This document shows positions 6,595 through 23,951 of a stretch of DNA of 64,000 nucleotides, in pieces (position 1 is the first letter of the stretch; the number at the start of each line of letters is the position of its first letter). Origin of the DNA: Streptomyces spinoverrucosus (GTDB lineage Bacteria > Actinomycetota > Actinomycetes > Streptomycetales > Streptomycetaceae). The notes under the pieces are model-generated. The model worked only from the letters and a program-made list of their open reading frames with translations, was not told where the DNA came from and did not search any database. Location: assembly GCF_015712165.1 (NCBI RefSeq), contig NZ_JADPZX010000001.1:5034001-5098000 (forward strand). Direction: 5' to 3'. Made by a program: the position numbers and the translations under genes.

Positions 6595-6599
6595 GCAGC

Positions 6600-6637: not shown

Positions 6638-6666
6638 CGTGCCGTACAGCAGCGAAGTACAGCAAC
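6635..6666 (+). repeat. Left arm-type repeat (integrase/excisionase site candidate)
   Basis: Contains two copies of GTACAGCA (6644-6651 and 6657-6664). The 23 bases 6644-6666 recur with one change at 13786-13808, just inside the opposite att site. Paired short repeats at both ends are the usual layout of tyrosine-recombinase arm sites. Confidence 0.6.
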
Positions 6667-10138: not shown

Positions 10139-10884
10139 GCGACCACCGCCCGCAGACGGGCCACCGGACGCGCCGGGGTGGCAGTGGCGAACAGGTGGTC
10201 CAAGGTGGCCAGGTAACCGCCGACCATGGGAGCCGGGCCCAGCCGCCGCAGGTGCAGCACCGGAGCCAACGCCGGGGTCAGCCCGTCCACGGGCGTGGTG
10301 ACCAACAGGTCATCGTCGGCCCGCAGCACATCAGCGCGCAGACCGGGATGAGTGGCCAGACGTAAGCCGGGAGTGGCCGTCAGTGACGGGAAGACGTCGG
10401 CCAGGCCAGTGACCGGTCCAGCCGGATTCTCCGGGGTGATGATCCGAACCCGGACCCCGGCGGCCGTCTTGTCAGCCAGCAGGGCGGGCAGATCCCACAC
10501 CGCATCAGCCAGGAACAGCAGGTTCGCGACCGCCAGGTCAATGACCGTGGTGGCGTTCGCCAGGGTGGAGCGCCACAGGCTGTAGGGGACGGTGCTGCGC
10601 ATCGGGTAGCAGGCAACGACCTCATCCTGCGGGGTCGGTGTCGAGCGGTGCCGCTGACCCAGCTTGGGCCACAGGTGGTAGGGGTCGGCGCCGAGGTACT
10701 TCGCGGCGGCTGCGGCGTTGCGGGCGTGCGGAGTGCGGTCAGTGTTCAGCCACCGGTCGACCGACTTGGCGTCGATGCCCAGGTGTGCGGCCAGACCCTC
10801 GATGGTGACGTTGGCGGCGACCATGGCGCCACGTAGACGTTCGTTCCCGGTTGCGGAGTGCGAAGCGGTGAGCGTCGCAGGCAT
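10135..10884 (-). CDS. XRE HTH protein with C-terminal PLD-like domain
   Basis: First gene of the minus-strand operon; 249 residues. The N-terminal HTH (ERLRGAMVAANVTIEGLAAH, KSVDRWLNTDRTPHARN) is followed by a domain with RVRIITPENPAGPV and LRADVLRADDDLLVTT. This fits a family of Streptomyces regulators whose C-terminus resembles phospholipase-D-like folds. ATG 10884 is chosen for GAGGGAG eight bases upstream; ATG 10908 has none. It is divergent from the GntR gene across a region rich in TAGGT repeats. Confidence 0.75.
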   Translation of the reverse strand: MPATLTASHSATGNERLRGAMVAANVTIEGLAAHLGIDAKSVDRWLNTDRTPHARNAAAAAKYLGADPYHLWPKLGQRHRSTPTPQDEVVACYPMRSTVPYSLWRSTLANATTVIDLAVANLLFLADAVWDLPALLADKTAAGVRVRIITPENPAGPVTGLADVFPSLTATPGLRLATHPGLRADVLRADDDLLVTTPVDGLTPALAPVLHLRRLGPAPMVGGYLATLDHLFATATPARPVARLRAVVA

Positions 10885-10987
10885 GATGGAAGCTCCCTCA
10901 GGGGACAAGGGGGCGGCGAATCTGCTTGGCGGTAGGAGCGCCGCCCCCGGGCTTAGGCAGGTAATCAGCCTGTCTAACTTCTATTGT

Positions 10988-11059
10988 GTTACCTAGATTA
11001 GTTGCGCCAGGGCTGTACGCAAGACCTAGGGGCAGATTTCTTTAGGTCACTTAGGTAAC
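10988..11059. promoter_or_regulatory. Divergent control region with TAGGT(AAC) sites
   Basis: Between the two divergent regulator genes. GTTACCTA at 10988-10995 is the inverse of TAGGTAAC at 11052-11059; ACCTAGGG (11024-11031) and TTTAGGTCAC (11041-11050) are further related half-sites. These are likely operators for the element's GntR (KorSA-like) repressor or the HTH protein. Confidence 0.55.
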
Positions 11060-11067
11060 CTGGGGAC

Positions 11068-11427
11068 GTGACCGTGAGCCAGGACGATCCCCGTAGCGCC
11101 TACGAGCAAGTAGCCGACGACCTTCGGAAGAAGATTGCTTCCGGAGTTCTTAGGGCTGGTCAGAAGCTCGACGGTAACGCCAAGATGGCGGAGCACTACG
11201 GCGTTGCCGCCATGACGATCCGCCATGCCCTCGACATCCTTAGGGGCGAACGTTTGATCGTCAGCCAGCAAGGGCGCGGCACGTTCGTGGCCAGTGACCC
11301 AGTGGGCACGGACTCAGCCGAACGGGACGCCAACATGGCCGACGAGCTGAGCGAGATCAAAGCCGCCCTAGAGCTGATCAACTCGCGGCTTGATCGACTC
11401 GAAGACCGGGTTCACGAGCGTCCTTGA
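11068..11427 (+). CDS. GntR-family regulator (KorSA-like)
   Basis: A 119-residue protein with a winged-helix GntR domain: SAYEQVADDLRKKIASGVL, LDGNAKMAEHYGVAAMTIRH, GERLIVSQQGRGTFVAS. A short helix (DELSEIKAALELINSRLDRL) replaces an effector domain, as in KorSA/KorA-type repressors that hold pSAM2-like elements silent. GTG 11068 is used; GTG 11074 is equally plausible because GGGGA at 11062-11066 is better spaced for it. The gene sits downstream of candidate operators and probably represses both directions. Confidence 0.85.
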   Translation: MTVSQDDPRSAYEQVADDLRKKIASGVLRAGQKLDGNAKMAEHYGVAAMTIRHALDILRGERLIVSQQGRGTFVASDPVGTDSAERDANMADELSEIKAALELINSRLDRLEDRVHERP

Positions 11428-11527
11428 CCGAGGAAGACAACCGATCAACACGTTGAGTGGCTTCGGCGAGCTTCCTCCTGATCTCATGCAGCTCGATCAA
11501 TAACCGTGCCCTGTCCGCGACCCTCAC
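11378..11527 (-). CDS. Possible 49-residue coiled-coil protein
   Basis: GTG 11527 is preceded by a GGAAGGGGGAAG ribosome binding site. The encoded peptide (RVADRARLLIELHEIRRKLA, then EATQRVDRLSS) is amphipathic and likely helical. It lies 26 bases after the stop of the TPR-XRE regulator gene on the same strand, and its 3' end overlaps the end of the GntR gene in antisense. It may be a small partner of the XRE protein. No database support is available to me. Confidence 0.45.
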   Translation of the reverse strand: MRVADRARLLIELHEIRRKLAEATQRVDRLSSSVKDAREPGLRVDQAAS

Positions 11528-11553
11528 GGCAGTCTTCCCCCTTCCAGTAGTGA

Positions 11554-12768
11554 TCAGCTCAGCTTCATGCTCGTGGCGAGGCGCCTGATCTCCGCCGAGT
11601 GCGAATGCTTGTCGGTCGACCTCAGGTCGTCGACGAGGTTGCGGGCCAGCGGCCTGTTGCGCACGTGCTGAGGGGCGATCGCGTCGGCCTTCAGGATCGC
11701 GTCGGCGGCAAGCGCCGGTTTGCGGTTCATCATCTGCCCGGCCGCCGTGCACACCCAGAAGTGCGACTGTCGTTCGCCCGATGCAATCCGCGCGATGTTG
11801 ACCAGCTCAGCGCGCGAGAGCACGTCACGGGGATGCCCCAGCTCCAGGCTCACTTCCACTGAATGGATCTCTGTATTCACGGCGTTGAACTGAGTCTGGA
11901 AGGCATTCCCGCCCTCCGGTACGCCGGCGGCGGCTTGGCGCGCCTCAGTCAGGTGCGACTCGGCCTCCGACCGATCCCAGAGCCGCGACCACGCAACCGC
12001 CGCGCGAAGATGCATCGCACCCCACAACGCACGCACCGTCTGATCCTCCGTGGCCAGGTGAGGTTCCAGGTCATCGAGAGCCTTGCGTGCCATGTCACGT
12101 GCTGCGCTCAGCGCACCTTCGTGCAGCCAGACACCACAAAGATCCCAACGGGCGGCAGCCTGAAGAATGGGCGACTCGGCCCGATCGGCGGCCACCAGCT
12201 CACGCTGAACGGCGCTCCAGCCGAGATCATGATGTCCGAGCAGGTTGGAGGACACTCGCGCCATGTGACTCGCTCGAAGCATGAGCCCTTCAGCCCGAGG
12301 CACGTCCTCTCCATCGGCCGTATCGCAGAGGATGACCAGCTCACGGAGGATCTGGGGAAGGACGTCACCCAGGGCCGTGAACCTCGCATCCTGCCTCAGC
12401 CTTTCGGCTGCCGCAACGCGCGCCGCAAGGTCCGGAAGGGTGGGGGGTTCAGCCGTCGTGATCAGCGCCGCCCCTCCGGGCATGGTCGCGTGTTGGAGGG
12501 CAAGGCGGAGGCCGGGGATAGCAGCGTGACCGGAGTCGAGTTCCGCAGTCTCGTGGCGATACGGCTGTCCCGTCAGCTCGATGACTTCTACGCCGAGCAC
12601 TTCGGCGATCTGGCCGAGGACGCTCATACGGTCGAGCGGAAGGCGACCGGTTTCGATCTTAGAGACCCAGCTCACGGAGCGATCGACAGCGGCCGCCAGT
12701 TGCGCTTGATCCCAGCCGAGACGGCGCCGTGCTCTTGCTACCCGTTGCCCCGTGGTCAGTTCCTTCAT
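11554..12768 (-). CDS. XRE regulator with TPR-like C-terminal domain
   Basis: A 404-residue protein. The N-terminal HTH (TTGQRVARARRRLGWDQAQL, DRSVSWVSKIETGRL) is followed by about 300 residues of helical repeats resembling TPRs (AAARWDLCGVWLHEGALSAA, RALWGAMHLRAAVAWSRLWD). Such proteins act as peptide- or signal-sensing regulators in actinobacteria. ATG 12768 is preferred over the adjacent ATG 12771 by spacing from GGGAA. An inverted repeat 47-69 bases upstream (12815-12837) is a likely autoregulatory site. Confidence 0.85.
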   Translation of the reverse strand: MKELTTGQRVARARRRLGWDQAQLAAAVDRSVSWVSKIETGRLPLDRMSVLGQIAEVLGVEVIELTGQPYRHETAELDSGHAAIPGLRLALQHATMPGGAALITTAEPPTLPDLAARVAAAERLRQDARFTALGDVLPQILRELVILCDTADGEDVPRAEGLMLRASHMARVSSNLLGHHDLGWSAVQRELVAADRAESPILQAAARWDLCGVWLHEGALSAARDMARKALDDLEPHLATEDQTVRALWGAMHLRAAVAWSRLWDRSEAESHLTEARQAAAGVPEGGNAFQTQFNAVNTEIHSVEVSLELGHPRDVLSRAELVNIARIASGERQSHFWVCTAAGQMMNRKPALAADAILKADAIAPQHVRNRPLARNLVDDLRSTDKHSHSAEIRRLATSMKLS

Positions 12769-12814
12769 CATGGGTTCCCTTCGACACTACGAAGGTACCC
12801 GCGCCAATCCGTGG

Positions 12815-12837
12815 CACTGTCAGTAAAAGTGACAGTG
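12815..12837. promoter_or_regulatory. Inverted-repeat operator upstream of the TPR-XRE gene
   Basis: CACTGTCA (12815-12822) and TGACAGTG (12830-12837) form a perfect 8-base inverted repeat with a 7-base spacer. Position and symmetry fit binding of a dimeric HTH protein. Confidence 0.6.
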
Positions 12838-12914
12838 GGCGCTCGAACGGCCCCCCGGTAGTACCGAGTTACGGGTTTCTCTACCTCATCAAGTCCCCCG
12901 CGCACGGCGCGGGA

Positions 12915-12981
12915 GCGCGCCGCCTGTACGGCGGGGCCGCCGCCCTGTCTTCGCCAGCGGCGGCCCCGCCCGGCGGCGCGC
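12915..12981. repeat. GC-rich nested inverted repeat
   Basis: The outer arms GCGCGCCGCC (12915-12924) and GGCGGCGCGC (12972-12981) enclose perfect 14-base inner arms at 12930-12943 and 12957-12970 with a 13-base loop. No convincing gene covers it. It could be a terminator, a cruciform or part of a single-strand origin for the Rep-driven replication mode. Confidence 0.7.
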
Positions 12982-13055
12982 CGGCGACTGCGGGGGCGTG
13001 GGATGGGGAAACCCTCTGTGGCTGGGGCGGTCGGCTCCACGGCTTTAGGCAGCCA

Positions 13056-13166
13056 CTTTGGGGCGAGCCTCTAAGATCATGGCCCCAACGTCGTGCTTTA
13101 ACGGGCAGGTCCACAGACTGCCCGACTCGCCATCAGCTTACGGGGCCATGATCACTCGCCCCAAAG
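13056..13166. repeat. Three-tier inverted repeat in noncoding DNA of the element
   Basis: Arm pairs, all perfect: CTTTGGGGCGAG (13056-13067) with CTCGCCCCAAAG (13155-13166); GATCATGGCCCC (13075-13086) with GGGGCCATGATC (13142-13153); CGGGCAG (13102-13108) with CTGCCCG (13118-13124). The result is a 111-base stem-loop. Alternatives: single-strand origin, structured RNA, or a MITE-like insertion. No gene is seen in 12772-13244. Confidence 0.75.
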
Positions 13167-13244
13167 CAGCTCCAGCCCAAAGCCGCTCCACCGACCTCTT
13201 GGGAAGCGGACCACGCCCGTATCGGCACGTGACAAGCTTGGACC

Positions 13245-13778
13245 GTGGATATCTGGTTGCCAGCGATCTTCGGTGTTGTCGGTACGCTCCTCGGTGCTCT
13301 TGCCTCAGGTGCGACATCATTCCTCGTGCAGAAGCACCAGGCGAAGGCGGCACTGGATTTGCGCCGTACTGAAGCTGAGCTAGCTGCCATGACGAGCCTT
13401 GAGAGCGGGCTGTGGGAGATCAGCCAATATGCAAGGTCCGCGCCTTCGGAGAACGTGAAGCATTGGAGCGACGCAGAGCGTGCAGCATGGGGAAAGCCCA
13501 TCCACGACCTGATCGGCCCGTTGTCGATCGCAGCGCGAGGCGTCCGCAACTCCGAGGTACGGCAGCGCTTGGTGGACATCCTGCACATGATCGAAAACTG
13601 GGGCGCCATGAGTCGGCGTGCTCATCCGATCCGCTACGTGCCGCCTCTCGTCGAGCACGCACTGGATTGCCTAGGCGCGCTGCGGCGAGGGGATCAAGTG
13701 TCGCTTGAAGATGAGGCTTACAAGCAGCTCAAGGAGATGCATGATCGCGCATACGTATCAACATCGGGAAGTAGCTGA
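13245..13778 (+). CDS. Membrane-anchored protein of unknown function
   Basis: A 177-residue protein starting at GTG 13245. Residues 3-27 (IWLPAIFGVVGTLLGALASG and on) form one membrane anchor; the rest is soluble and helical with no recognised motif. It is the only cargo-like gene on the element and sits next to attR. Many actinobacterial accessory proteins share an N-terminal anchor plus helical body, so no function is assigned; superinfection exclusion or defence are untested ideas. Confidence 0.7.
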   Translation: MDIWLPAIFGVVGTLLGALASGATSFLVQKHQAKAALDLRRTEAELAAMTSLESGLWEISQYARSAPSENVKHWSDAERAAWGKPIHDLIGPLSIAARGVRNSEVRQRLVDILHMIENWGAMSRRAHPIRYVPPLVEHALDCLGALRRGDQVSLEDEAYKQLKEMHDRAYVSTSGSS

Positions 13779-13808
13779 CGTGGCTGTACAGCAGCGGAGT
13801 ACAGCAAC
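13776..13808 (+). repeat. Right arm-type repeat (integrase/excisionase site candidate)
   Basis: Near copy of 6635-6666: the 23 bases 13786-13808 match 6644-6666 with a single A/G change and keep both GTACAGCA boxes. It lies 82 bases inside attR. Confidence 0.6.
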
Positions 13809-13890
13809 CACACCGACCGCAGTCGACTGGCAGCACTCCCAGGACCACGGCTGACCGGCCGAATAGACCTCAGCAACCTCCCCGCCCGTA

Positions 13891-13934
13891 GTTCGCATCG
13901 AGGGGGCCAGGGGTTCAAATCCCCTCAGGTCCAC
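13891..13934 (+). other. attR (44-bp core repeat)
   Basis: Identical to 6551-6594 and equal to the 3' half of tRNA-Ala. No 5' tRNA half precedes it, so it is not a gene. It marks the right end of the integrated element. Confidence 0.95.
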
Positions 13935-14207: not shown

Positions 14208-15110
14208 GTGGAGATACGCCACCTGGTGACATTTCAGAAGGTCGCGACGCTGTTGAGCTTCACCCGCGCCGCGGAGGAGCTGAGTTACGCGCAGTCGAGT
14301 GTGACGACCCAGATCCGGGCGTTAGAGACCTCGCTGGGGGTGGAGCTCTTCGACCGGCTGGGCGGGCGCATCCGGCTGACGCCGGCCGGTGAGAAGCTGC
14401 TGGAGTACGCCGAGCAGATCCTGGCTCTGACCGAAGCCGCTCGTGCGGACGTCGCCGGCGGGGACGGTCCGTCGGGGACCCTGGTGGTCGGCACGATGGA
14501 GAGCATCACCTCGTACCGCATGCCGCCGCTGCTGGAGTTCTTCCATCACCGCTATCCGAAGGTGCAGCTGTCGCTGCGGCCGAGTCTGTGCGCCGAGACC
14601 TGTCACGCACTGCGTCAGGGAAGCTTCGACATCGGGTTCCTGATGGAACAGGAGACCCGGCATCAGGGGCTGGAGACCGTGGTGTTGGCCGAGGAGCCGC
14701 TGGTGCTCGTCGCCGCCCCCGGCCACCCGTTGGCGCAACGGCAGGACCTGTCACTGCACGATCTTCGCTCGGCGTCCATCCTGGCCACCGAGGCCGGATG
14801 CGCCTACCGAGATCTGTTCGAGGAGGAGCTGCGGGGCGCGGAGACCACGCCGTTTCTCGAGTTCGGAACCATCGAGGCGATCAAGAGAGGCGTCATGTCC
14901 GGGCTGGGCGTCGCGCTGCTTCCCGCGGTGACCGTGGCCGGGGAACTGGAGAAGGAGGAGATGACGGCGCTGCCGTGGGACATCCCGTTCTCCGTCCATA
15001 CGCAGCTGGCCTGGCGCAGCGGCAGGCGGCTGTCACGGGAGCTGAAGTTGTTCATCGACCAGGCGGTGCGGTTGATGCGGGAGGACGGGCCGCTCGCCGA
15101 GTCGGGCTGA
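14208..15110 (+). CDS. LysR-family regulator with a TTA codon
   Basis: A 300-residue LysR-type regulator. It has an N-terminal winged HTH (RHLVTFQKVATLLSFTRAAE, YAQSSVTTQIRALETSLGVE, residues 4-60) and a periplasmic-binding-fold effector domain (LVVGTMESITSYRMPPLLEF onward). GTG 14208 follows AGGGGGAA. Residue Leu39 is encoded by TTA (14322-14324), which in Streptomyces needs the bldA tRNA and is common in regulators of secondary metabolism. It is the only regulator beside the minus-strand biosynthetic genes and the best candidate to bind the shared 49-bp blocks at 20535 and 23414. Confidence 0.9.
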   Translation: MEIRHLVTFQKVATLLSFTRAAEELSYAQSSVTTQIRALETSLGVELFDRLGGRIRLTPAGEKLLEYAEQILALTEAARADVAGGDGPSGTLVVGTMESITSYRMPPLLEFFHHRYPKVQLSLRPSLCAETCHALRQGSFDIGFLMEQETRHQGLETVVLAEEPLVLVAAPGHPLAQRQDLSLHDLRSASILATEAGCAYRDLFEEELRGAETTPFLEFGTIEAIKRGVMSGLGVALLPAVTVAGELEKEEMTALPWDIPFSVHTQLAWRSGRRLSRELKLFIDQAVRLMREDGPLAESG

Positions 15111-15172
15111 CCCCCGGCAGAGAACGGCACGAGAGCGGTACGAGAGCGGTACGCCCGGCGCGTGAAGGGACT

Positions 15173-15739
15173 TCACACCGCCACCGGTTCGGGGGCGAAG
15201 ACGGAGATCCGGTGGGTGACGTCGTCGGGTGTCCGCCGTCTCGGCGGCTGCGGCTCTGCCGGGGTGCCGATGTACAGCCAGCCCAGGAGGCGTTCGTTCG
15301 GCCCCAGGCCGAGCAGGCGGTGGGCCTGCGGGGATTCGGTGAACCTGCCGGTGCGCCAGATGCTTCCGAAGCCACGGGCGTGCAGCAGCAGGCCCAGGGA
15401 GCCGGCCATGGCGCTCGTCGCGGCCAACTGCTCCCACTCGGGCACGCGGTGATCGGTCACCGGTGTGAACACCAGCGTGGCGAGGAGCGGGGCCCGGCGG
15501 GTCTTGGCCTCGGTCCTGGCGCGTTGGAGGGCGGGCGCGGAGCTGTCGTCGGCGAAGCAGCGGCCGAGGGCGGCGCGTCCCTCACCGCGTACCAGGATCC
15601 ACCGCCAGGGGCGCAGCCTGCCGTGGTCCGGTGCGGTGGCGGCGGCCCGGAGCAGGTAGGCGAACTCGTCGTCAGTGGGGGCCGGTTCGACGAGATGGTG
15701 TTCGCTGCGGCGGCTCAGTACGGCCGTCATGACGTCCAT
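15173..15739 (-). CDS. Nitroreductase-fold protein (YdjA-like)
   Basis: A 188-residue FMN-dependent nitroreductase-family member. SRRSEHHLVEPAPTDDEF is the FMN phosphate-binding start, TAPDHGRLRPWRWILVRGEG the central motif, and ERLLGWLYIGTPA the C-terminal strand. ATG 15739 follows GAGGAAA. It is the last gene of the eamA-asd-ask-oxygenase transcript, set apart by a very strong hairpin (15762-15812), so its level may be attenuated. Here it could perform oxidation or reduction on an amino-acid intermediate; the substrate is unknown. Confidence 0.85.
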   Translation of the reverse strand: MDVMTAVLSRRSEHHLVEPAPTDDEFAYLLRAAATAPDHGRLRPWRWILVRGEGRAALGRCFADDSSAPALQRARTEAKTRRAPLLATLVFTPVTDHRVPEWEQLAATSAMAGSLGLLLHARGFGSIWRTGRFTESPQAHRLLGLGPNERLLGWLYIGTPAEPQPPRRRTPDDVTHRISVFAPEPVAV

Positions 15740-15761
15740 GCGCTTTCCTCCTCACAGACTG

Positions 15762-15812
15762 GGGGTGGGGCGGCCCGGGGGGTGTTGGTTTCCCCCCGGG
15801 CCACCCCACCCC
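15762..15812 (-). terminator. Strong intercistronic hairpin (terminator or attenuator)
   Basis: Arms 15762-15782 and 15792-15812 pair over 21 bases with one mismatch (core CCCGGGGGG / CCCCCCGGG), loop of nine bases. It lies between the oxygenase stop (15823) and the nitroreductase start (15739). It may uncouple the last gene or stabilise the upstream mRNA 3' end. Confidence 0.7.
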
Positions 15813-15822
15813 ACCGGACGGA

Positions 15823-16851
15823 TCAGTAGTGCACGCGGCGGTTGTCGGGGGTCTGCCGGTAGCGGATGGTCCACTGGCTGCGGCGTACGTAGGTCCGCTG
15901 CAGCCAGCGGTCGGCACCGTCGTAGCGGGCGGTGAACGGGGTGCGGGCGTGCAGGCCCTTGCGGTTGTTGATCAGCAGCGCCTCGCCGGGGCGCAGGTGG
16001 ACCTGGTGGGCGGTCTCGCGGCAGGCGGCCTGAAGACGGTCCAGGGCCGCCTCGGCGGCGGTGGTCATGGCGCGTACGCCGTTGGCGGAGGAGGAGATCT
16101 CGGGGAACTCCTCGGGCCCGCTGATCATGGCGACCGGGTCGGAGAGCACCTCGCGTCCGCCGGCCACGTCGCGTACGTAGCTGCCGGGCGCGTTGAGCCG
16201 GAACAGCGGGCTGCGCAGCAGCTCCAGGGTGCGGGAGTCGAGGGCGCGGACGATGTCCCGGGCGTCCGCGTAGTGGGTGGCGGCGATGCCCTCGTGGTCG
16301 GCGCGCAGGCAGCTGAGGACGAGGAAGTCGGGGTTGCTGACGTCGTAGCGGCCGATGGCGTCGTGAACGATGTCGTTGTGGAAGTTGAGGAAGACGGTCG
16401 ATCCCTGGTTGGTCTGCGTCATCGCGCCGCCCTCGACGGGGATGACGTCGTGGACGAGCTGACCGTTCTTCTCGGTGAGGAATCCGACCGGCTCGCCCAG
16501 CAGGCCGGACAGGCCGAGCAGGACGCCCTCGGCGACGAAGGTCTTCTTGCCGGTGGCCGGGCCGCCGTCGGCCGGAGTGGGAGGCAGCTCCGCGTCGACG
16601 GGCAGGTTGCGGACGTAGCCGACGCCGGGGGCGTCGTTGTGACGGCCGAAGTCCAGTATCTGCTGGAGCAGTTCGAGTGGCAGGGTGGCGAAGATCTGGT
16701 GGTAGCGCGCCATGGCCCGGTCGGGGTCCTGGGCCGGATCGGGCTCGGCGGCGAGTGCTCGTCCGATGGCGTCCCGGGCGGCGTCGGGAACTTCGATCAG
16801 GCCCAGGGTCTGCGGCGTGCGGATGCTGGTCTCGACGGTGGTCGTGGTCAT
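15823..16851 (-). CDS. Clavaminate synthase-like Fe(II)/2-oxoglutarate oxygenase (AsnO/VioC type)
   Basis: A 342-residue TauD/TfdA-superfamily enzyme. It shares with asparagine/arginine beta-hydroxylases the segments YVRNLPVD, LPPTPADGG, FLTEKNGQLVHDVIPV and GSTVFLNFHNDIVHDA. Metal ligands are H158 and D160 (HND) with distal H301 (GLHARTPF); an arginine near 315 (DRWLQRTYVRR) would bind 2-oxoglutarate. AsnO uses HxE where this has HxD. ATG 16851 follows AAGGAG. It likely hydroxylates (or desaturates) a free or activated amino acid such as an Asp/methyl-Asp derivative; substrate is inference. Confidence 0.85.
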   Translation of the reverse strand: MTTTTVETSIRTPQTLGLIEVPDAARDAIGRALAAEPDPAQDPDRAMARYHQIFATLPLELLQQILDFGRHNDAPGVGYVRNLPVDAELPPTPADGGPATGKKTFVAEGVLLGLSGLLGEPVGFLTEKNGQLVHDVIPVEGGAMTQTNQGSTVFLNFHNDIVHDAIGRYDVSNPDFLVLSCLRADHEGIAATHYADARDIVRALDSRTLELLRSPLFRLNAPGSYVRDVAGGREVLSDPVAMISGPEEFPEISSSANGVRAMTTAAEAALDRLQAACRETAHQVHLRPGEALLINNRKGLHARTPFTARYDGADRWLQRTYVRRSQWTIRYRQTPDNRRVHY

Positions 16852-16877
16852 GGTGACTGCTCCTTCGCTGAGTTGGG

Positions 16878-17963
16878 TCAGAGGGCTCGGATCCCGAGGG
16901 TGGTCTCGGGCAGTGCGTCGTGGAGCTTCTGCGCCAGATCGCGGGCTTCCTCGGGGTCGGCGGCGATGTGGGTGGTCGCCCGGCTCCCGGTGATCTCGGT
17001 GACGGGGATGCCCAGGACGCGGCCTTCGGGCAGGTTGTGGGCGCGCTGGAAGTGTTCGATGTCCAGGTAGCCGCCGACGATCACGAGGTGCGGTCCGTCC
17101 TCCAGCCGCACGGTGTCGACGTTCTCGGTGTGGAAGACGCTGTGCGCCAGATCGGCCTGGGCGGCGGTGTCGTAGGCGAGGACGCTGGACTTCGTGTTGA
17201 GTACGACTCCGGCCGCCGGGCCGCCCTCCGCGCTGATGACCGTGCCGGAGGGGAAGGGCGACCGGTTGTGGCGGCAGACCAGGGTGATGCCGTGCTGCTT
17301 GGCGGTCCGTACCGACCTGCGGTGCAGGACCTTCGCCCCGTACCGCGACATCAGCGCGGCGGTGTCGTACGTCACCTCGGACAGCAGACGGGCGCCGGTG
17401 ACCGCGTTCGGGTCCGCGCTGTAGATGCCGTCGACGTCCGAGTGGATCTCGCAGGCTTCGGCGCCGAGCGCCGCGGCGACGAGGACCGCGGACAGGTCGG
17501 AGCTGTTCTTGCCGAGCCAGGTGGGGCGGCCCTGCTGGTCGGCGGCCTGGCCGCCGGGGATGATGACGACCTCGTGCTCCTCCAGGGCCTGCCGCAGCGG
17601 GGCGGCGTCCAGCCGTGCCACCTTCGCCCACATGAACGTGCTGTCGGTGACGAGGCCCTGCTGGTGGCCGGCGAGCACGGTGGCTGTCACTCCGGCCCGG
17701 TGCAGGGCGGTGGCGAGCAGGTGGGCGCTGATGGTGTCGGCGAGGGTGAGGAGTCCGGCGACGGTGGCGTCCTGCGGCTGCGGGTTGGTCTCCCGCAGCA
17801 GGCCGCGCAGCTTCTCGGTCTCGCCGGGCATGGCGCTGACGACGACGGCCATGGGCCGCTGCTCGTCCTCGATCCGCTGCCGCAGGGCCGTGGCGAGGTC
17901 GGCGTAGGCCCCCAGGGTGGGGAAGGTGGAGCCTCCGAACTTCAGGACGGCGGGTGTGGTCAC
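16878..17963 (-). CDS. Aspartokinase, secondary copy with reduced regulatory domain
   Basis: A 361-residue aspartate kinase: KFGGS at residues 8-12, GGQAADQQGRPTWLGKNSSD substrate loop, and SDVDGIYSADPNAV. About 100 residues follow the kinase domain, and I do not recognise the usual tandem ACT repeats, so lysine/threonine feedback may be lost. GTG 17963 overlaps the asd stop as GTGA. Located with glutamate mutase genes, it may phosphorylate 3-methylaspartate (or aspartate). It is presumably a paralogue of the housekeeping enzyme, which is outside the window. Confidence 0.87.
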   Translation of the reverse strand: MTTPAVLKFGGSTFPTLGAYADLATALRQRIEDEQRPMAVVVSAMPGETEKLRGLLRETNPQPQDATVAGLLTLADTISAHLLATALHRAGVTATVLAGHQQGLVTDSTFMWAKVARLDAAPLRQALEEHEVVIIPGGQAADQQGRPTWLGKNSSDLSAVLVAAALGAEACEIHSDVDGIYSADPNAVTGARLLSEVTYDTAALMSRYGAKVLHRRSVRTAKQHGITLVCRHNRSPFPSGTVISAEGGPAAGVVLNTKSSVLAYDTAAQADLAHSVFHTENVDTVRLEDGPHLVIVGGYLDIEHFQRAHNLPEGRVLGIPVTEITGSRATTHIAADPEEARDLAQKLHDALPETTLGIRAL

Positions 17964-19003
17964 AGCACACCTCGCCTGGTGAGGGCCTCGGCGATCTGCA
18001 GCGCGTTGAGGGCGGCGCCGATGCGCACGTTGTCCGCGACGATCCACAGCCACAGACCACGCGGGTTGTGGCCGGCCACGCGGATGCGGCCGACGTGGAC
18101 CCGGTTGGGGTCGCCCGCGGTGCGGGGGGTGGGGAAGGTGCCCTCGGTGCTGGGGTCGTGGACGGTGACCTCGGGCTGCTCGGCCAGCAGGCCGACGAGT
18201 TCGTCGCGGTCGACGGGGTTGTGGCACTCGACCCAGGCCGCCTCCGAGTGGCTGTTGACCACGGGGACCCGTACGCAGGTGGTGGTGACGTCCAGGTGCG
18301 GCAGGCCGAGGATCTTGCGGGACTCCTGGAGCATCTTCTGCTCCTCGAAGGTGAAGCCGTCGTCCAGGAGGCGGTCGATGCTCGGGATGACGTCGAAGGC
18401 GAGGGAGGGGGTGAAGGTCCCGGTCACGCCGGCGCTGTCGGGATCGTCGAGGACGGTACGGGTGCCGGCTTGCAGTTCCTCGATGCCGGAGTAGCCCGCG
18501 CCGGAGGCTGCCTGGTACGTGCTGACCACGGCCTGGCGTATGCCCCAGCGTTCCTCGATGGGTTTGAGCAGTCGGACCAGCGGGATGGTGGAGCAGTTCG
18601 GGTTGGCGATGATCCCGCCGGCCGGGCGGGTGTCCAGTTCGTGGGCGTTGACCTGGGGGACGACCAGCGGGATGTCGGGGTCCATCCGGAAGGCGCTGGT
18701 GTTGTCGATGACGAGGGCGCCCTGGGCGACGGCCTTGGGTACGAAGGTGTTGCTCACCCTGGCGCCGGCGGAGAAGAAGGCGACGTCGACGTCGGCGAAG
18801 TCGAAGCCGTCCAGGTCCTGCACGCGGTAGGCGTGGCCCTCCACGGTGACCTCGCGCCCGGCCGAGCGGGCGGAGGCGACCAGGTGCAGGTCGCGGTAGC
18901 GGAAGCCGCGCTCCTCGATGAGCTGCAGGAGGGTGGTGCCGACCACTCCGGTGGCGCCGACCAGGGCGATGCGCGGTGCGGTGGGATCGGTGACGCGGGG
19001 CAT
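17960..19003 (-). CDS. asd: Aspartate-semialdehyde dehydrogenase, secondary copy
   Basis: A 347-residue NADPH-dependent dehydrogenase that reduces 4-aspartyl phosphate to the semialdehyde. It has the nucleotide loop VGATGVVGTTLL, FFSAGARVSN, catalytic Cys137 in NPNCSTIPL, QAASGAGYSG and LWIVADNVRIGAALNALQ. AAGGA lies nine bases before ATG 19003. It forms a coupled pair with the aspartokinase, consistent with acting on (methyl)aspartyl phosphate. A 365-bp tandem repeat separates it from the upstream transporter gene. Confidence 0.9.
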   Translation of the reverse strand: MPRVTDPTAPRIALVGATGVVGTTLLQLIEERGFRYRDLHLVASARSAGREVTVEGHAYRVQDLDGFDFADVDVAFFSAGARVSNTFVPKAVAQGALVIDNTSAFRMDPDIPLVVPQVNAHELDTRPAGGIIANPNCSTIPLVRLLKPIEERWGIRQAVVSTYQAASGAGYSGIEELQAGTRTVLDDPDSAGVTGTFTPSLAFDVIPSIDRLLDDGFTFEEQKMLQESRKILGLPHLDVTTTCVRVPVVNSHSEAAWVECHNPVDRDELVGLLAEQPEVTVHDPSTEGTFPTPRTAGDPNRVHVGRIRVAGHNPRGLWLWIVADNVRIGAALNALQIAEALTRRGVL

Positions 19004-19020
19004 GGCGGGGGTTCCTTTCA

Positions 19021-19385
19021 GACGGTGGTTGCGCTGGGCTGTTGGGATCTGGCGGTGGTGTGGTGGGGGTTGCCGGGGTCGGGCGGTGGTTGCGCTGGGC
19101 TGTCGGGATCTGGCGGTGGTGTGGTGGGGGGTTGCCGGGGTCGGGCGGTGGTTGCGCTGGGCTGTCGGGATCTGGCGGTGGTGTGGTGGGGGGTTGCCGG
19201 GATCTGGCGGTGGTGTGGTGGGGGTTGCCGGGGTCGGGCGGTGGTTGCGCTGGGCTGTCGGGATCTGGCGGTGGTGTGGTGGGGGGTTGCCGGGATCTGG
19301 CGGTGGTGCGGTGCGGGGTGCCGGGATCGGACGGTGGTTGCACTGGGCTGCCGGGCGAGGCGGTGGTGTGTGGTGCGGGCCGCCG
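19021..19385. repeat. Tandem repeat array, about 61-bp units
   Basis: About six G-rich units built from GGCGGTGGTTGCGCTGGGCT, TGTCGGGATCTGGCGGTGGT and GTGGTGGGGGGTTGCCGGGG. Some copies are shortened to a sub-unit of about 33 bases, and the last ones are degenerate. It fills the gap between the transporter stop (19389) and the asd ribosome binding site; no gene is evident. The G-runs could fold as quadruplexes on the plus strand. Confidence 0.9.
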
Positions 19386-19388
19386 GGA

Positions 19389-20366
19389 TCAGACGGTCGT
19401 GCGCTTGCGGGCTGCCGGGGTCGGCTGGGCCGGGGTGCTGGTGTCGGAGTCCGAGGCGGAGGTGGAGGCCGCGCGGAGGCGGGGGCGCCAGCCGAGGTTG
19501 ATGCCGAGGGAGGCGGCCACGATGAGCGGGATGCCCAGCGCCTGGGTCCAGGTGACGTGGTGTCCGTAGACGGCCCAGTCGCAGATCATGGCGGCGGCCG
19601 GGTACACGAAGGCCAGGACGGCGATCTTCGAGGTGGGCAGCTTCTGGTACGAGGAGTACATCAGCACGTACATGACGCCGGTGTGGATGAAGCCGAGGCC
19701 GACGAGCCAGGCCCAGCCGGTGCCGAAGTCGGCGCTCTGGTCGAGCTGGGTGAAGGGCAGCAGCAGCGGGATGCCCAGCAGCACCTGGACCAGCGCGACG
19801 AGGTGGGGCTTCACGCCGGTGACGCGCTTGGTGATGATCGTCGACAGGCCGTAGAAGAGGGCGGCCAGCAGCGCGTATCCGAGACCGACCAGGTAGCTGC
19901 TGCCGCCGGAGAGGTCGGACGTCGAGACGCCGGCGACGAGGATGAGCCCGAGGAAGGCGACGAGCAGCCAGCCCGCCTTGTGCGCGGTGATGCGGTCCTT
20001 GAACAGCAGGGCCCCGAGCATGACCACGAAGAACGGTTGCGTGTGGTAGACGACGGTGGCCACGGAGATGGACGTCGAGCTGTAGGACTCGAAGAGGAAC
20101 GCCCAGTTGAACACGATGAACACGCCGCCGAGTGCGGCGAGGCCGAGCTTCTTCGCGGTGAAGCCGTGGTTCTTGAAGAAGCCGCGGATCAGGCAGTACA
20201 GGCCGAGGAAGAGGGTGCCGAACACGCACCGGTAGAAGACCACGTTGAACGGCGAGGCGCCGGACTCGACGACGAAGACGCCGAGGGTGCCGGACAGCAG
20301 CATGGCCGCCGTCAGTTCCACTGCTCCACGCGACTCCTGACGTGCCGTCGCTTCTGATGTGCTCAT
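19389..20366 (-). CDS. DMT-superfamily (EamA) transporter
   Basis: A 325-residue integral membrane protein with about ten hydrophobic helices in two EamA repeats (for example LGVFVVESGASPFNVVFYRC, GGVFIVFNWAFLFESYSSTS, LAFVYPAAAMICDWAVYG). Such proteins export amino acids and related metabolites. ATG 20366 follows GGAG. It is the first gene of the operon driven from the promoter at 20497-20526. In this setting it is the likely exporter of the cluster product or a resistance factor. Confidence 0.88.
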   Translation of the reverse strand: MSTSEATARQESRGAVELTAAMLLSGTLGVFVVESGASPFNVVFYRCVFGTLFLGLYCLIRGFFKNHGFTAKKLGLAALGGVFIVFNWAFLFESYSSTSISVATVVYHTQPFFVVMLGALLFKDRITAHKAGWLLVAFLGLILVAGVSTSDLSGGSSYLVGLGYALLAALFYGLSTIITKRVTGVKPHLVALVQVLLGIPLLLPFTQLDQSADFGTGWAWLVGLGFIHTGVMYVLMYSSYQKLPTSKIAVLAFVYPAAAMICDWAVYGHHVTWTQALGIPLIVAASLGINLGWRPRLRAASTSASDSDTSTPAQPTPAARKRTTV

Positions 20367-20496
20367 GTCATACTCCTGCTCTGGGGGGAAACGGGTCTCC
20401 CCGGCGTCCGGGGTGGAGGTCGGTGAGGCGGGGTGTGCTGGTCGGCGGCTCGGCGATGGTCCGCATCGCCCGGCCCCGAGAAGCCGGCCTACGAAC

Positions 20497-20526
20497 AAGC
20501 TACGAACTTCTGGCAGTCCGGGTCCA
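20497..20526 (-). promoter_or_regulatory. Promoter of the transporter-asd-kinase-oxygenase operon
   Basis: On the minus strand, -35 TGGACC (20526-20521) and -10 TAGCTT (20502-20497) are 18 bases apart. The same -35 and spacer length occur at 23376-23405. The leader to ATG 20366 is about 125 bases. Confidence 0.55.
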
Positions 20527-20534
20527 CGGCCGGC

Positions 20535-20583
20535 TGGGGAACGAAATCGATGCCCGCATCAAGGCTGTCGATCGGGGCGTGCG
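20535..20583. promoter_or_regulatory. Shared 49-bp upstream element, copy 1
   Basis: Matches 23414-23462 at 46 of 49 positions. It starts TGGGGAACGAAATCGATG and contains the inverted repeat GATGC-CC-GCATC. It lies directly upstream of the -35 box, so it is a probable activator site. Confidence 0.7.
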
Positions 20584-20596
20584 AGCAGGCGAAACG

Positions 20597-21538
20597 TCAG
20601 TGCAGGGGCAGGGGGTAGTGCAGGCCGCCGTCGGTCCACAGGGCGTTGGTGCCACGGCTGACGTCCAGGCCGGAGGCCGCGCCCAGGTTGCGGTCGTAGA
20701 CGTCGCCGTAGGTGCCGACGGCGTCGAGGACACGGCGTGCCCAGCCCTCGTCCAGACCCAGCGTGGGTCCGTGCCGGCCGGCCAACTCGGCAGCGGCGTA
20801 CGCCGCCTGCGTCGAGCCGTCCTCCCGGACGGCGTGTTCGGCGGCGACGAGGAACTGCAACACCCACCGGGCCACCCGGAACCAGGCCGGGTCGTCGTCG
20901 CGGACGGCGAGCGCCATGGGTTCCCGGGAGATGGCGGTCTCCAGCACCGTGTGGTCGGCGGGGCGGGGCAGCGTGGCGCGGGCACCGGCCAGCGCGATGC
21001 GGTCCAGGACGTATGCCGCGCACCCGCCGTCCGCGTAGCCGGCCAGCGCCTCGGCCGGGGTGGCGTAGGCGACGGGCTCGACCTTCAGCCCGCGCGCGCC
21101 GAACCACGCCGCCAGATTGCTCGCGGTGGTGGTGCCCTCCTGGGTGGCGACCCGCCGCCCGGCCAGCTGCTCCGGGGTGGATATCCCGTCCGCCGTCCGG
21201 ACCAGGAAGCCCTCCCCGTCATAGCAGGTGACGCCGGCGAACAGGACGGGGTGGGAGGCCTCGCGCCCCAGGGTCCACGACAGGTTGCAGGTGGCCACGT
21301 CCGCTCCGCCCGAGGTGAGCCGTGCCAGCCGCTCGGCGGGGTCCGTCGGCAGCCACTCCACGGCACCGGCGTCGCCGAGCACCGCCGCGGCCACCGCGCG
21401 GGCGATGTCGGCGTCGAGCCCGCTCCACGTGCCCTGCGCGTCGGGCAGGGACAGGCCGCGGATTCCCTGGCTGACCACCGCCCGGACCTTGCCGTGCGCG
21501 CGCACCGCTTTCAGAGTGTTGTGCGTTCCGGTCGTCAC
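20597..21538 (-). CDS. AapJ-like amino-acid-binding fold protein without signal peptide
   Basis: A 313-residue type II periplasmic-binding-fold protein. VVSQGIRGLSLPD, WSGLDADIARAVAAAVLGD, RRVATQEGTTTASNLAAWF and GTNALWTDGGLHYPLPL match the general L-amino-acid ABC-binding protein AapJ. It lacks a signal peptide or lipobox, and no permease or ATPase gene is nearby. GTG 21538 overlaps the glmE stop as GTGA. It should therefore be cytoplasmic and may be an enzyme on this scaffold (cyclohexadienyl dehydratase is a precedent) or a product-binding protein. Confidence 0.8.
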   Translation of the reverse strand: MTTGTHNTLKAVRAHGKVRAVVSQGIRGLSLPDAQGTWSGLDADIARAVAAAVLGDAGAVEWLPTDPAERLARLTSGGADVATCNLSWTLGREASHPVLFAGVTCYDGEGFLVRTADGISTPEQLAGRRVATQEGTTTASNLAAWFGARGLKVEPVAYATPAEALAGYADGGCAAYVLDRIALAGARATLPRPADHTVLETAISREPMALAVRDDDPAWFRVARWVLQFLVAAEHAVREDGSTQAAYAAAELAGRHGPTLGLDEGWARRVLDAVGTYGDVYDRNLGAASGLDVSRGTNALWTDGGLHYPLPLH

Positions 21539-22869
21539 AGCATCCCCCTCACCGCGGCGCCGACCAACTCCTCGCGGTCGAAGCGGCGTTCGTTGTAGCC
21601 GAGCATCTCGATCAGTGAGTGCGCCGTCACCGGTCCGCGGCCGTGTCCGCCGAAGCCGGTCACGGGCATGGCTCCCGGGTCGGACCAGCGCAGGGTTCCC
21701 GCGGGATCGATGGCCGCCCGCGAGCGGTTGGCGTTGTCCTGGTGCAGGCAGAACGGCACGTCCAGGTGCCCGTGGGCGAAGGCGCCCACCAGCGCGGATC
21801 CGACGTCGCCGCCGAAGCCCAGCGTCGACGTGATCAACCGCAGTGCCTCTTCGTAGATGCCGGTCTGCTGAAACGTTTGCTCTGAGGGGATGTGGCGTGC
21901 CTCGTCGGTGGCCACGGCGGCCGCGAACTCCAGGGCGTCCACGTTCTCCTCGATGGTCGGAATACGGTGCGCTTCCACGGCGGTCTTCACAATGAGCCGC
22001 TCGGTGCCGCTGCGGACCGCGAGGCGGACGCTGTCCTCCAGCATCCGGTACGCGCCCACCGGCGTCCTCGGATACACCCCCATGTACGTGTAGAGCACCA
22101 CGTGCCAGTCGACGTCCCCCAGCCACTGCGCGGCGAGGCGGCGCAGCGCGGCGAGCGCTTCGAGGTCCTGCTCGGGGCTGGTCTGCTGGGCGTAGCTGAC
22201 CGAGATGCTCCGCACACCGTGCTCCCGGAAGAACAGCCCCTCCAGGATGCTGAGGGCGATCAGCAGACTGGGCGGGCACAACTGGCCGAGCATGCAGCCG
22301 CCGAAGCTCTCCAGGTGCACCGTCCGCGGCTGGTCCGCCAGGATGCGGCAGCACTCGGCCCAGGCCGCCGTCGCCTGCGGCAGCGGCACCCGGCTGTAGG
22401 GCAGGCAGTACGAGACCGGGCCGCCCTCGGTGGCGTCCGCGCCGACGCGGGCCAGCGCCGCGAACAGTTCCTGGGGGAGCGCGGAGCCGTGGCGGAACTG
22501 GACGGGGAAGTCCTCACCGGCCACACCCTCCAGCAGGCGGCGGGTCTCCTGCGTGCCGTGGGCCACCACGGGGTAACCGTTGAGGTCGTCGCCCCGCTCC
22601 AGCGCCCGCCGGGCGGAGTCGTGGTCGTTGACCCGGGTGTAGCTGTCGACGGTGACCGTGCCGACGGATGCCCCGTGCACCGCCCGCACCGCCTCGAGAC
22701 CGCGCCGCATGGTCGCCGAGTCGGCGAACCCCATCCGCGGCTGCACCACCAGGCGCCCCTGTTCGTGGCTGCGCCGGACGAAGCGGGAGAACCGGCCGCC
22801 GGCCGGCACGATCGGCGACGGCGTGGCGGGAGCGGACCGGGCAGGCGCGTTGCTTTCGAAGCCGCTCAT
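21535..22869 (-). CDS. glmE: Methylaspartate (glutamate) mutase, E subunit
   Basis: The catalytic TIM-barrel subunit of B12-dependent glutamate mutase, which interconverts L-glutamate and 3-methyl-L-aspartate. The 444-residue product has LVVQPRMGFAD, TVTVDSYTRVNDHDSA, LNGYPVVAHGTQETR, ESFGGCMLGQLCPPSLLIAL and RLITSTLGFGGDVGS, typical of GlmE. ATG 22869 is chosen: it follows the glmS stop by one base and has GGGGGG eight bases upstream; GTG 22902 has no ribosome binding site. Secondary-metabolite clusters (friulimicin, vicenistatin) use such pairs to make methylaspartate. Confidence 0.9.
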   Translation of the reverse strand: MSGFESNAPARSAPATPSPIVPAGGRFSRFVRRSHEQGRLVVQPRMGFADSATMRRGLEAVRAVHGASVGTVTVDSYTRVNDHDSARRALERGDDLNGYPVVAHGTQETRRLLEGVAGEDFPVQFRHGSALPQELFAALARVGADATEGGPVSYCLPYSRVPLPQATAAWAECCRILADQPRTVHLESFGGCMLGQLCPPSLLIALSILEGLFFREHGVRSISVSYAQQTSPEQDLEALAALRRLAAQWLGDVDWHVVLYTYMGVYPRTPVGAYRMLEDSVRLAVRSGTERLIVKTAVEAHRIPTIEENVDALEFAAAVATDEARHIPSEQTFQQTGIYEEALRLITSTLGFGGDVGSALVGAFAHGHLDVPFCLHQDNANRSRAAIDPAGTLRWSDPGAMPVTGFGGHGRGPVTAHSLIEMLGYNERRFDREELVGAAVRGML

Positions 22870-22870
22870 C

Positions 22871-23338
22871 TCAGGCCCCCCTGCCGGCCGTGGCGAGTTC
22901 ACGGGCAGGTGCCTTTTCCAGCCCGCCGAGAAAGGCGTCGAATTCGGCGAGTCCGGCTTCCGCCTCGAATGCCGCGTCGAACCCGGCCGCTACGAGCTCG
23001 GTGCCGAACCGAGCGTTTTCGGACCCTCGAATACCTAGTTTTCCGCCGATGACCACACGCAGATCGGCCAGTTCGGAATCGGAGCGGATCCGCTGGATGA
23101 GCCGGAGCCCGTCCAGGTGCCCGTGGCCGTTGACGGTGCTCACCACCAGCGCGTCAGGGCGGACTCTTCGGCACTCGGCGAGGATCACGTCGTCCGGAAC
23201 ACACGCTCCGAGGTTGACCACCTCCCCGCCTCGTTCCTCCAGCAGTAACTGCAGAAATACGAGGTTCCACATGTGGGCATCTGATGACACGCTGGTGACG
23301 ATGAAACGTCCGGAGCGTGCCGGGGATATCTCGTCCAT
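22871..23338 (-). CDS. glmS: Methylaspartate mutase S subunit (cobalamin-binding), TTA-containing
   Basis: A 155-residue B12-binding Rossmann protein, partner of GlmE. The base-off cobalamin motif appears as D20-A-H22-M-W-N25, with Asn where the classic motif DxHxxG has Gly. VVNLGACVPD, VVSTVNGHGHLDG and VVIGGKLGIRG follow as in the family. Leu31 is a TTA codon (23246-23248 on the plus strand), making translation dependent on bldA tRNA. It is the first gene of the glmS-glmE-AapJ-like operon. Confidence 0.9.
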   Translation of the reverse strand: MDEISPARSGRFIVTSVSSDAHMWNLVFLQLLLEERGGEVVNLGACVPDDVILAECRRVRPDALVVSTVNGHGHLDGLRLIQRIRSDSELADLRVVIGGKLGIRGSENARFGTELVAAGFDAAFEAEAGLAEFDAFLGGLEKAPARELATAGRGA

Positions 23339-23375
23339 TACTCCCGTCCGCAGGTCGGCGAAGCTGACGTACTGG

Positions 23376-23405
23376 AACCTACGAGTTCGGGTGACAGCCG
23401 GTCCA
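23376..23405 (-). promoter_or_regulatory. Promoter of the glmS-glmE operon
   Basis: On the minus strand, -35 TGGACC (23405-23400) and -10 TAGGTT (23381-23376) lie 18 bases apart. The expected start is about 30 bases before the glmS ATG. Confidence 0.6.
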
Positions 23406-23413
23406 CAACACGG

Positions 23414-23462
23414 TGGGGAACGAAATCGATGCCCGCATCAAGGGTGTCGATAGGGGAGTGCG
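23414..23462. promoter_or_regulatory. Shared 49-bp upstream element, copy 2
   Basis: Differs from 20535-20583 at three positions. It keeps the same 14-base offset to the GGTCCAC (-35) block and carries the inverted repeat GATGC-CC-GCATC. It lies between the glmS promoter and the GNAT stop. Confidence 0.7.
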
Positions 23463-23471
23463 GAGGCCTTG

Positions 23472-23951
23472 TCAGGCGAGGAACTTCGCGTAGCAGCGGC
23501 TGGACTCGTAGGAGCGGTAGTAGCCGAACTTGGCGCACGGCTCGTAGCCGCTGGAGGTGTAGAGGGCGATGGCCTCCGGCTGCTGGGTGCCGGTCTCCAG
23601 GACCATGCGGACACGGCCGGCGGCGCGGGCGTCGTCCTCCAGGGCGGCGAGCATGCGCCGGGCGATGCCGCGGCCGCGCAGCTCCCTGACCACGTACATC
23701 CGCTTCAGCTCGGCGTCGCCGTCCTCGTTGCCCTCGGCGTTCTTGTCCTGGCTGCGCCAGCCGCCGGTGGCGACGGGGCGGTCGGTGTCGTCGTAGGCGA
23801 TCAGGTACACGCCGTTCGGCGGCTGGAAGTCCGACGGGTCGAGGGCGGTGGCGTCGCCGCCGTCGCCGTAGCGCTCGTGGTACTCGGCCTGGACCTCGTC
23901 GTTGAGCTTCACGGCGTCGGGGTGGTCGAAGGGGACGCGACGTATATTCAT
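23472..23951 (-). CDS. GNAT-family N-acetyltransferase
   Basis: A 159-residue acetyltransferase with ELKRMYVVRELRGRGIARRM as the acetyl-CoA-binding motif A (about residues 81-100) and AIALYTSSGYEPCAKFG as motif B. The substrate is unknown. It shares a short intergenic region with the glmS promoter but reads away from it only in position; it is on the same strand and probably has its own promoter near 23960. It appears to be the first core gene after the variable island. Confidence 0.85.
   Translation of the reverse strand: MNIRRVPFDHPDAVKLNDEVQAEYHERYGDGGDATALDPSDFQPPNGVYLIAYDDTDRPVATGGWRSQDKNAEGNEDGDAELKRMYVVRELRGRGIARRMLAALEDDARAAGRVRMVLETGTQQPEAIALYTSSGYEPCAKFGYYRSYESSRCYAKFLA

Follow-up and report, generated by a model that had tools for sequence, protein, structure and literature searches.

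Glutamate mutase genes in the sceliphrolactam, friulimicin and vicenistatin clusters supply 3-methylaspartate, which is used as such or decarboxylated, and the ectoine-type route (Ask, Asd, EctB) has a dedicated kinase–Asd pair for a specialised product. Both enzyme systems meet in one gene cassette of Streptomyces spinoverrucosus, which we analysed in a 64,000-nucleotide chromosomal stretch (hereafter the window) of the 8.85 Mb genome. The cassette comprises genes for the two glutamate mutase subunits (GlmS and GlmE), a divergent aspartokinase, an Asd homologue, a Fe(II)/2-oxoglutarate oxygenase, an AapJ-like amino-acid-binding protein, a DMT exporter and a LysR-family regulator (Table 1). 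As in the macrolactam and lipopeptide clusters, the mutase would here serve a specialised metabolite; the cassette alone adds a kinase and an Asd after 3-methylaspartate.

The gene content, its conservation and co-inheritance, the catalytic residues and an altered kinase pocket, all observed directly, point to a route from glutamate through 3-methylaspartate and its 4-phosphate to 3-methylaspartate 4-semialdehyde, followed by oxidation and export. This is the best-supported reading, and we put its probability at about 0.7. GlmS/GlmE, with adenosylcobalamin, would convert L-glutamate into (2S,3S)-3-methylaspartate, the 4-carboxylate of which would be phosphorylated by the divergent aspartokinase; Asd would then turn the acyl phosphate into 3-methylaspartate 4-semialdehyde (2-amino-3-methyl-4-oxobutanoate, i.e., 4-oxovaline). 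The oxygenase may oxidise C3, or a position adjoining it, in this semialdehyde or in a preceding intermediate, the binding protein may hold a reactive or toxic amino acid in the cytosol, and the product would be exported by the DMT protein under LysR control. We infer in this way the substrates and the order of steps, as well as the outcome of the oxygenase reaction, the role of the binding protein and the final product.

Genes in the window were called from start codons, ribosome-binding sites and codon usage and assigned to families with Pfam and NCBIfam. Every gene named by the first-pass annotation of this DNA is present at 14208–23338; its span to 23462 overshoots glmS by about 120 bp. 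Related loci were collected by a GlmE-alignment scan of a one-genome-per-species collection, of which the best 80 of 520 loci were used, and 20 other loci brought the number examined to 100; all ten window proteins were searched against these. A cassette locus was defined by gene calls for GlmE, Asd and the kinase, which gave 41 loci including the window and, after removal of nine duplicates, 32 non-redundant ones. The set thus recurs at 31 further loci, a lower bound since it derives from the best 80 of 520. Near copies are still present within the 32 (L035/L036 and L049/L065), and five more cassettes (L155, L156, L157, L172 and L173, with no exporter in L157 and L173) are not counted among them.

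GlmE, Asd and the kinase are present in the 32 loci by selection. Beyond them, the loci carry the binding protein (32/32), the oxygenase and the LysR regulator (31/32 each) and the DMT exporter (26/32), and GlmS was detected by tblastn in each of the 31 other loci. Mean pairwise identities of the cassette proteins are 0.62–0.71, and the distance matrices of eight genes (28 pairs, L077 excluded) correlate with r of 0.69–0.93, none of 500 permutations being as high for any pair. Such correlation indicates co-inheritance, which is insufficient alone to prove a single pathway. Because the unselected genes turned up independently and the distances correlate, the gene set is real and goes beyond chance neighbourhood. 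The nitroreductase, which the first-pass annotation had placed in the cluster, lies in the window and in only three other loci of the 32 (L052, L053 and L054); within the closest clade it counts as an accessory gene. The GNAT gene directly upstream of glmS has no counterpart in the other fetched loci compared and could be a strain-specific protection gene; both were rejected as core genes. The earlier interpretation as a dedicated amino-acid cluster is retained without the nitroreductase as a member.

The strongest sign that the substrate has changed comes from the kinase. The genome has elsewhere a second aspartokinase (425 aa, 34% identity) beside a second Asd (44%), as well as a third Asd (45%), and the cassette copies are therefore extra. 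The proposal of a dedicated kinase–Asd pair agrees with this, and primary lysine/threonine synthesis as the sole role of the pair, the outcome that would have spoken against that proposal, was rejected. The cassette kinase stays below the NCBIfam aspartate kinase cutoffs (best 196 versus 376 bits; TIGR00657 182.5 versus 208.7), has the KFGG motif, and its predicted structure matches aspartokinases. No ACT domain match was obtained in a Pfam scan; the model ends in an alpha/beta region some 100 residues long, which was compared only within the whole model. Judging from sequence, the protein may work like an aspartokinase, and we do not class it as aspartate-specific.

We compared 36 cassette-type kinases (the 32, those of S. 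xanthii, L172 and L173, and the L167 remnant) with six controls, namely two kinases of primary metabolism and another four taken from Streptomyces gene groups that hold a kinase and an Asd and showed no cassette-type glmE within 20 kb of sequence; an orphan kinase (L166, genome G033) was excluded. Columns were taken as separating when they had at most one exception per group and no overlap. Five of 361 positions separate the groups, two of them without exception: position 76 is D in 36/36 cassette-type kinases and E in 6/6 controls, and position 152 is K in 36/36 and R in 6/6. The others are position 48 (E in 35/36, T in controls), which neighbours the Thr45 equivalent, position 70 (G versus M) and position 229 (V in 35/36, H in 5/6 controls). 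Ordinary kinases have GE and GRGGSD motifs, and the cassette kinases have D for that E and GKNSSD. D76 was matched to E. coli LysC Glu119 through the GE motif and K152 to Arg198, consistent with the numbering of the 2j0w match. According to PMC5481828, Glu119 and Arg198 of LysC form salt bridges to the alpha-amino group and alpha-carboxylate of aspartate, and variants with a shorter side chain at 119 gained malate activity. Both pocket changes accompany glmE, hence the weight we give them, and E to D with R to K would fit a switch from aspartate to 3-methylaspartate.

The cassette Asd scores 385 bits against the TIGR01296 cutoff of 324; four columns split 35 cassette Asds from seven controls, to which we attach no meaning. 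A second Streptomyces family with a dedicated kinase–Asd pair was seen at L168–L171 (kinase at 9313, 9138, 9345 and 8875, respectively), in gene groups which by eye include ATP-grasp-like, alcohol and aldehyde dehydrogenase and MFS genes; no cassette-type glutamate mutase was found there within the 20 kb read.

In the mutase, GlmE residues R45, R79, R126, E148, Y154 and Y158 align with the Clostridium cochlearium enzyme (6h9e) and are invariant in 32/32 cassette rows, R45 being so in the 26/26 rows having a residue there. They correspond to what we take to be the arginine claw for the substrate (R66, R100, R149) and radical-site residues (E171, Y177, Y181; C. cochlearium numbering). In GlmS, the D and H of the DxHxxG cobalamin motif are kept in 31/31 and the G is replaced by N; in seven loci the called GlmS gene begins past the motif, which was taken from tblastn instead. 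The same N occurs in 45/54 non-cassette GlmS (8/54 gave no motif match), and this replacement was therefore rejected as a hallmark of the cassette. GlmE (PF06368) and GlmS (PF02310) reach the Pfam cutoffs and miss the NCBIfam equivalog cutoffs (183.9 versus 390.1 and 55 versus 110 bits). In Thermoactinospora rubra, GlmS and GlmE are fused in one reading frame (L067 9614–11308; P0069 with both Pfam domains).

The oxygenase has asparagine oxygenase 2og5 as its best PDB match (E 3.6e-42), and H158, D160, H301, E127 and N148 are conserved in 31/31. AsnO is a C3-hydroxylase, and its E125 and N146 correspond to E127 and N148 on the 2og5 alignment. The position of AsnO D241, presumably the side-chain amide contact, is S in 28/31 cassette oxygenases and A in 3/31, therefore a carboxamide substrate is unlikely.

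The binding protein is closest to the AapJ type, with 4z9n as its nearest match by sequence and the top Foldseek match. R92 and D179, which we take to be ligand residues, are kept in 32/32. Its N-terminal hydrophobicity, taken over in-frame N-terminal extensions, does not exceed 1.15 in 30/32 loci, against 1.33–1.87 for three control N-termini, in line with the signal-less AapJ homologue originally proposed; of the remaining two, L073 reaches 1.61 and L059 is too short for scoring. In the cytosol, the protein may serve to hold a reactive amino acid, and an enzymatic role instead is conceivable. A cyclohexadienyl-dehydratase-like enzyme was considered and not supported, since 4z9n is nearest in sequence and fold and AncCDT ranked lower.

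Among 392 Streptomyces genomes, 145 have a GlmE, whatever its kind, 19 have a homologue of the cassette oxygenase (at least 63% identity), and 21 have a cassette-type kinase (at least 55% identity). The gap between the oxygenase gene and glmE is 3.2–4.7 kb in 18 of the 19 genomes and 13.7 kb in one, on a plasmid of S. xanthii. When 394 genomes from across the class were sampled, nine had an oxygenase match at 1e-40, and no oxygenase match above 40% identity was found in this sample outside Streptomyces; relatives in Streptacidiphilus, Thermoactinospora and Couchioplanes hold the cassette or most of it. A GlmE tree of 93 rows, built by a quick search and with long branches flagged, places 31 of the 32 cassette rows in one 35-row set (SH-aLRT 98), which also includes four non-cassette rows; L077 falls outside. 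The orphan kinase of G033 (L166 9228–10379) keeps D76, whereas its position 152 is P and the lysine of its K-F-G-G motif is missing, and in the G258 remnant (L167 8596–11618) only LysR, kinase and DMT exporter genes remain.

If the kinase and Asd made ordinary aspartate semialdehyde and the mutase supplied 3-methylaspartate separately, the two units being joined or used in parallel, the canonical Asd active site would be well suited, and ordinary-pocket kinase–Asd pairs indeed exist in other Streptomyces groups without nearby cassette-type glmE. However, the pocket change follows glmE (36/36 versus 0/6), the cassette core has no ligase for joining two units, and feedback loss by itself would not require a change at both salt-bridge positions, so that we consider this explanation unlikely. 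It is also possible, though we find it doubtful, that the oxygenase acts first and hydroxylates 3-methylaspartate at C3 before the kinase and Asd reduce 3-hydroxy-3-methylaspartate. The solved relative nearest to the oxygenase, a C3-hydroxylase, and the retained E127 and N148 speak for this order; L077, which has the kinase, Asd and GlmS/GlmE without the oxygenase, is easier to explain if oxidation is late. A decaying or inactive genomic island is suggested by the remnants elsewhere (L166 and L167) and by the tandem repeat between the DMT gene and asd, but it is very improbable given that every window gene is open, the catalytic residues are intact and close relatives are conserved. GlmS and GlmE are generally known as the first enzymes of the methylaspartate route of glutamate catabolism; yet no methylaspartate ammonia-lyase is among the ten window proteins scanned, the kinase, Asd and oxygenase have no role in that route, and the presence of the cassette is sporadic (19/392 genomes). 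Gene content led us to reject this pathway, for which only a negligible chance is left.

Several observations weigh against the preferred route through 3-methylaspartate 4-semialdehyde. The window cassette has no aminotransferase or alcohol dehydrogenase, therefore any further conversion of the aldehyde falls to the oxygenase or to enzymes from outside the cassette. Asd retains the usual active site, C137, Q164, R245 and H252 being invariant in 32/32. The kinase controls are few, four of the six being related, and the E to D and R to K changes could reflect altered kinetics and not the methyl group. Two of the 21 genomes with a cassette-type kinase (G033 and G258) lack both the oxygenase and glmE, and the oxygenase and LysR genes are missing from L077. 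S. xanthii GlmE groups with another GlmE set, therefore its glmSE may serve a different branch. Finally, gene spacing, with 4-base overlaps at the glmE/binding protein and asd/kinase junctions, predicts that the cassette is likely read as one transcript; the exporter gene is bordered by gaps of 230 bp and 385 bp, the latter containing the tandem repeat, which make a single transcript less certain.

As to the final product, the semialdehyde route may be a new way to a beta-methylated aspartate semialdehyde that is further oxidised to an exported mimic of branched-chain amino acids, poisoning branched-chain metabolism. We raise this tentatively because three cassettes carry a leuC–leuD pair downstream, an extra copy where tested. 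The pair lies directly downstream together with a second LysR gene at L035 2953–4953, L036 16696–18704 and L156 13186–15205 (L035 and L036 are near relatives), and it is an additional copy in both genomes tested (G013 and G226), with about 65% identity to the other leuC. It could encode a resistant target copy or, equally, have a biosynthetic or tailoring function.

The absence of NRPS (non-ribosomal peptide synthetase) and PKS (polyketide synthase) genes, pointed out by the first-pass annotation, holds for the window and not for relatives, where NRPS, PUFA (polyunsaturated fatty acid)-synthase-like PKS and ATP-grasp genes lie beside the cassette. In these strains, the cassette amino acid probably goes into peptides or lipids as one of their units. 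NRPS-type neighbours with a luciferase-like monooxygenase inside an adenylation domain, found together with LysX, DegT and transketolase genes, were identified by eye in G041 and from annotation in NBC_01006, and this neighbourhood resembles azabicycle clusters. The monooxygenase-containing NRPS is at G041 gene 31 (L041/L140) and L157 19061–24331; two G041 adenylation domains, compared by eye with specificity codes, of which one looks Gly-like, gave no link to the cassette amino acid and are not used as evidence here. PUFA-synthase-like PKS, acyl-CoA dehydrogenase and phosphopantetheinyl transferase neighbours were seen, mostly by eye, in G011, G315, G269 and, in part, G071. L070 and L077 have a class-IV aminotransferase (Pfam) and, by eye, prephenate-decarboxylase-like and ATP-grasp-like neighbours.

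The DMT gene is absent from six loci, three of which adjoin NRPS (L068, L070 and L113) and one PUFA-type PKS genes (L047), the remaining L092 and L110 having the same neighbour families as L047. The exporter is present in L069, L071, L073, L074 and L079, which have such neighbour families too. The plasmid cluster of S. xanthii contains GlmS/GlmE, the kinase, Asd, two oxygenases, three ATP-grasp genes and one glutathione-synthase-like gene, with no binding-protein gene in its listing. It also has a transaminase of the diaminobutyrate family, which passes the TIGR00709 cutoff and stays under those of the ectB and PRK06938 models; it is of a type acting on a 4-semialdehyde and could take the cassette semialdehyde as its substrate.

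Table 1. Features of the cassette and its surroundings in the window.
Feature	Position	Strand	Basis or remarks
pSAM2-type integrative element in tRNA-Ala	6551-13934		bounded by exact 44-bp direct repeat
Integrase of the tRNA-Ala element	6666-7889		inside 44-bp repeats
pSAM2-type RepSA of the tRNA-Ala element	8089-9510		inside 44-bp repeats
LysR-family regulator	14208..15110	+	Pfam HTH_1 and LysR_substrate
Nitroreductase-family protein, accessory	15173..15739	-	PF00881
Fe(II)/2-oxoglutarate oxygenase, AsnO/clavaminate synthase type	15823..16851	-	TauD; H158-x-D160...H301, R315
Divergent aspartokinase, 361 aa, proposed 3-methylaspartate kinase (D76, K152)	16878..17963	-	AA_kinase; PDB aspartokinase matches (sequence and fold)
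Asd homologue, proposed 3-methylaspartate-semialdehyde dehydrogenase (C137, Q164, R245, H252)	17960..19003	-	PRK14874, TIGR01296 above cutoff
GC-rich, GC-skewed tandem repeat, 62/93/155-bp periods	19021..19424	.	covers DMT gene 3' end and gap to asd
DMT/EamA exporter	19389..20366	-	PF00892
AapJ-like amino-acid-binding protein, no recognisable signal peptide	20597..21538	-	SBP_bac_3; 4z9n E 3.2e-67
GlmE, glutamate mutase E subunit	21535..22869	-	PF06368 E 1.5e-102; R45, R79, R126, E148, Y154, Y158, K295
GlmS, cobalamin-binding glutamate mutase subunit, DAHMWN motif	22871..23338	-	PF02310, PRK02261 matches
Conserved block 5' of glmS, candidate LysR operator	23414..23451	-	7 upstream regions aligned; dyad judged by eye
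GNAT acetyltransferase gene, directly upstream of glmS	23472..23951	-	outside conserved set

The conserved block 5' of glmS may serve as the LysR operator, and a scan for consensus promoters and terminators gave one promoter-like site and about as many terminator-like sites as chance would give. The last 44 bases of tRNA-Ala (6551–6594) are exactly repeated at 13891–13934 (chance expectation 0), and the cassette begins 274 bp past this second repeat. A second att copy was sought beyond the cassette and none was seen, therefore the cassette may be only a neighbour of the tRNA-Ala element and not its cargo. The flanking genes were searched in 41 genomes, and 21 relatives have both on one contig: 20 at a spacing of 0.8–30 kb (six at 0.77–1.05 kb) and G012 at 2.8 Mb, compared with 17.6 kb in the window (measured between match ends). 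The other cassette stretches that were fetched gave no match to either flanking gene. Further cassettes are carried by linear plasmids of S. cattleyicolor, NBC_01003 and NBC_01006, and the S. xanthii plasmid with the split version is linear as well. The best explanation is that the cassette is self-contained and moves horizontally.

The view that this is an amino-acid-type cluster without a known assignment agrees with searches of PMC: among the papers listed, judged on titles and the starts of abstracts, none describes the gene set, subscription journals being mostly outside its coverage. A review mentioning both glutamate mutase and aspartate kinase does so in passages on engineered mesaconate and malate routes (PMC7341569). 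If our reading is true, a module of primary metabolism (aspartokinase–Asd) was duplicated and redirected to a branched substrate by few pocket changes, yielding a new non-proteinogenic amino acid that could be used by itself or as a unit of larger molecules. The spread of the cassette, with the exporter present or absent, would then be a handle for mining amino-acid antibiotics and peptides.

The cassette may be compared with several described systems. The adjacent primary ask–asd genes encode the same two enzyme families, and the cassette kinase differs in having D76 and K152 and no Pfam ACT match. The natural E to D change, together with R to K and proposed here for 3-methylaspartate, would be a parallel to the engineering of LysC, in which, according to PMC5481828, the substrate choice was shifted to malate in the laboratory by changes at the Glu119 position (E119S and others). 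AapJ-type proteins belong to ABC transporters, while the cassette protein has neither a recognisable signal peptide nor adjoining ABC transporter genes. With AsnO, clavaminate synthase and VioC, the oxygenase shares the family, the Fe ligands and the amino-acid substrate site; it departs from AsnO and clavaminate synthase 1 in its metal motif, which is HxD and not HxE, and from AsnO in the S or A at the position of D241. Unlike the ectoine route, the window cassette has no transaminase, acetyltransferase or cyclase, and it has a glutamate mutase upstream; the S. xanthii relative has, like that route, an added transaminase, of the diaminobutyrate family.

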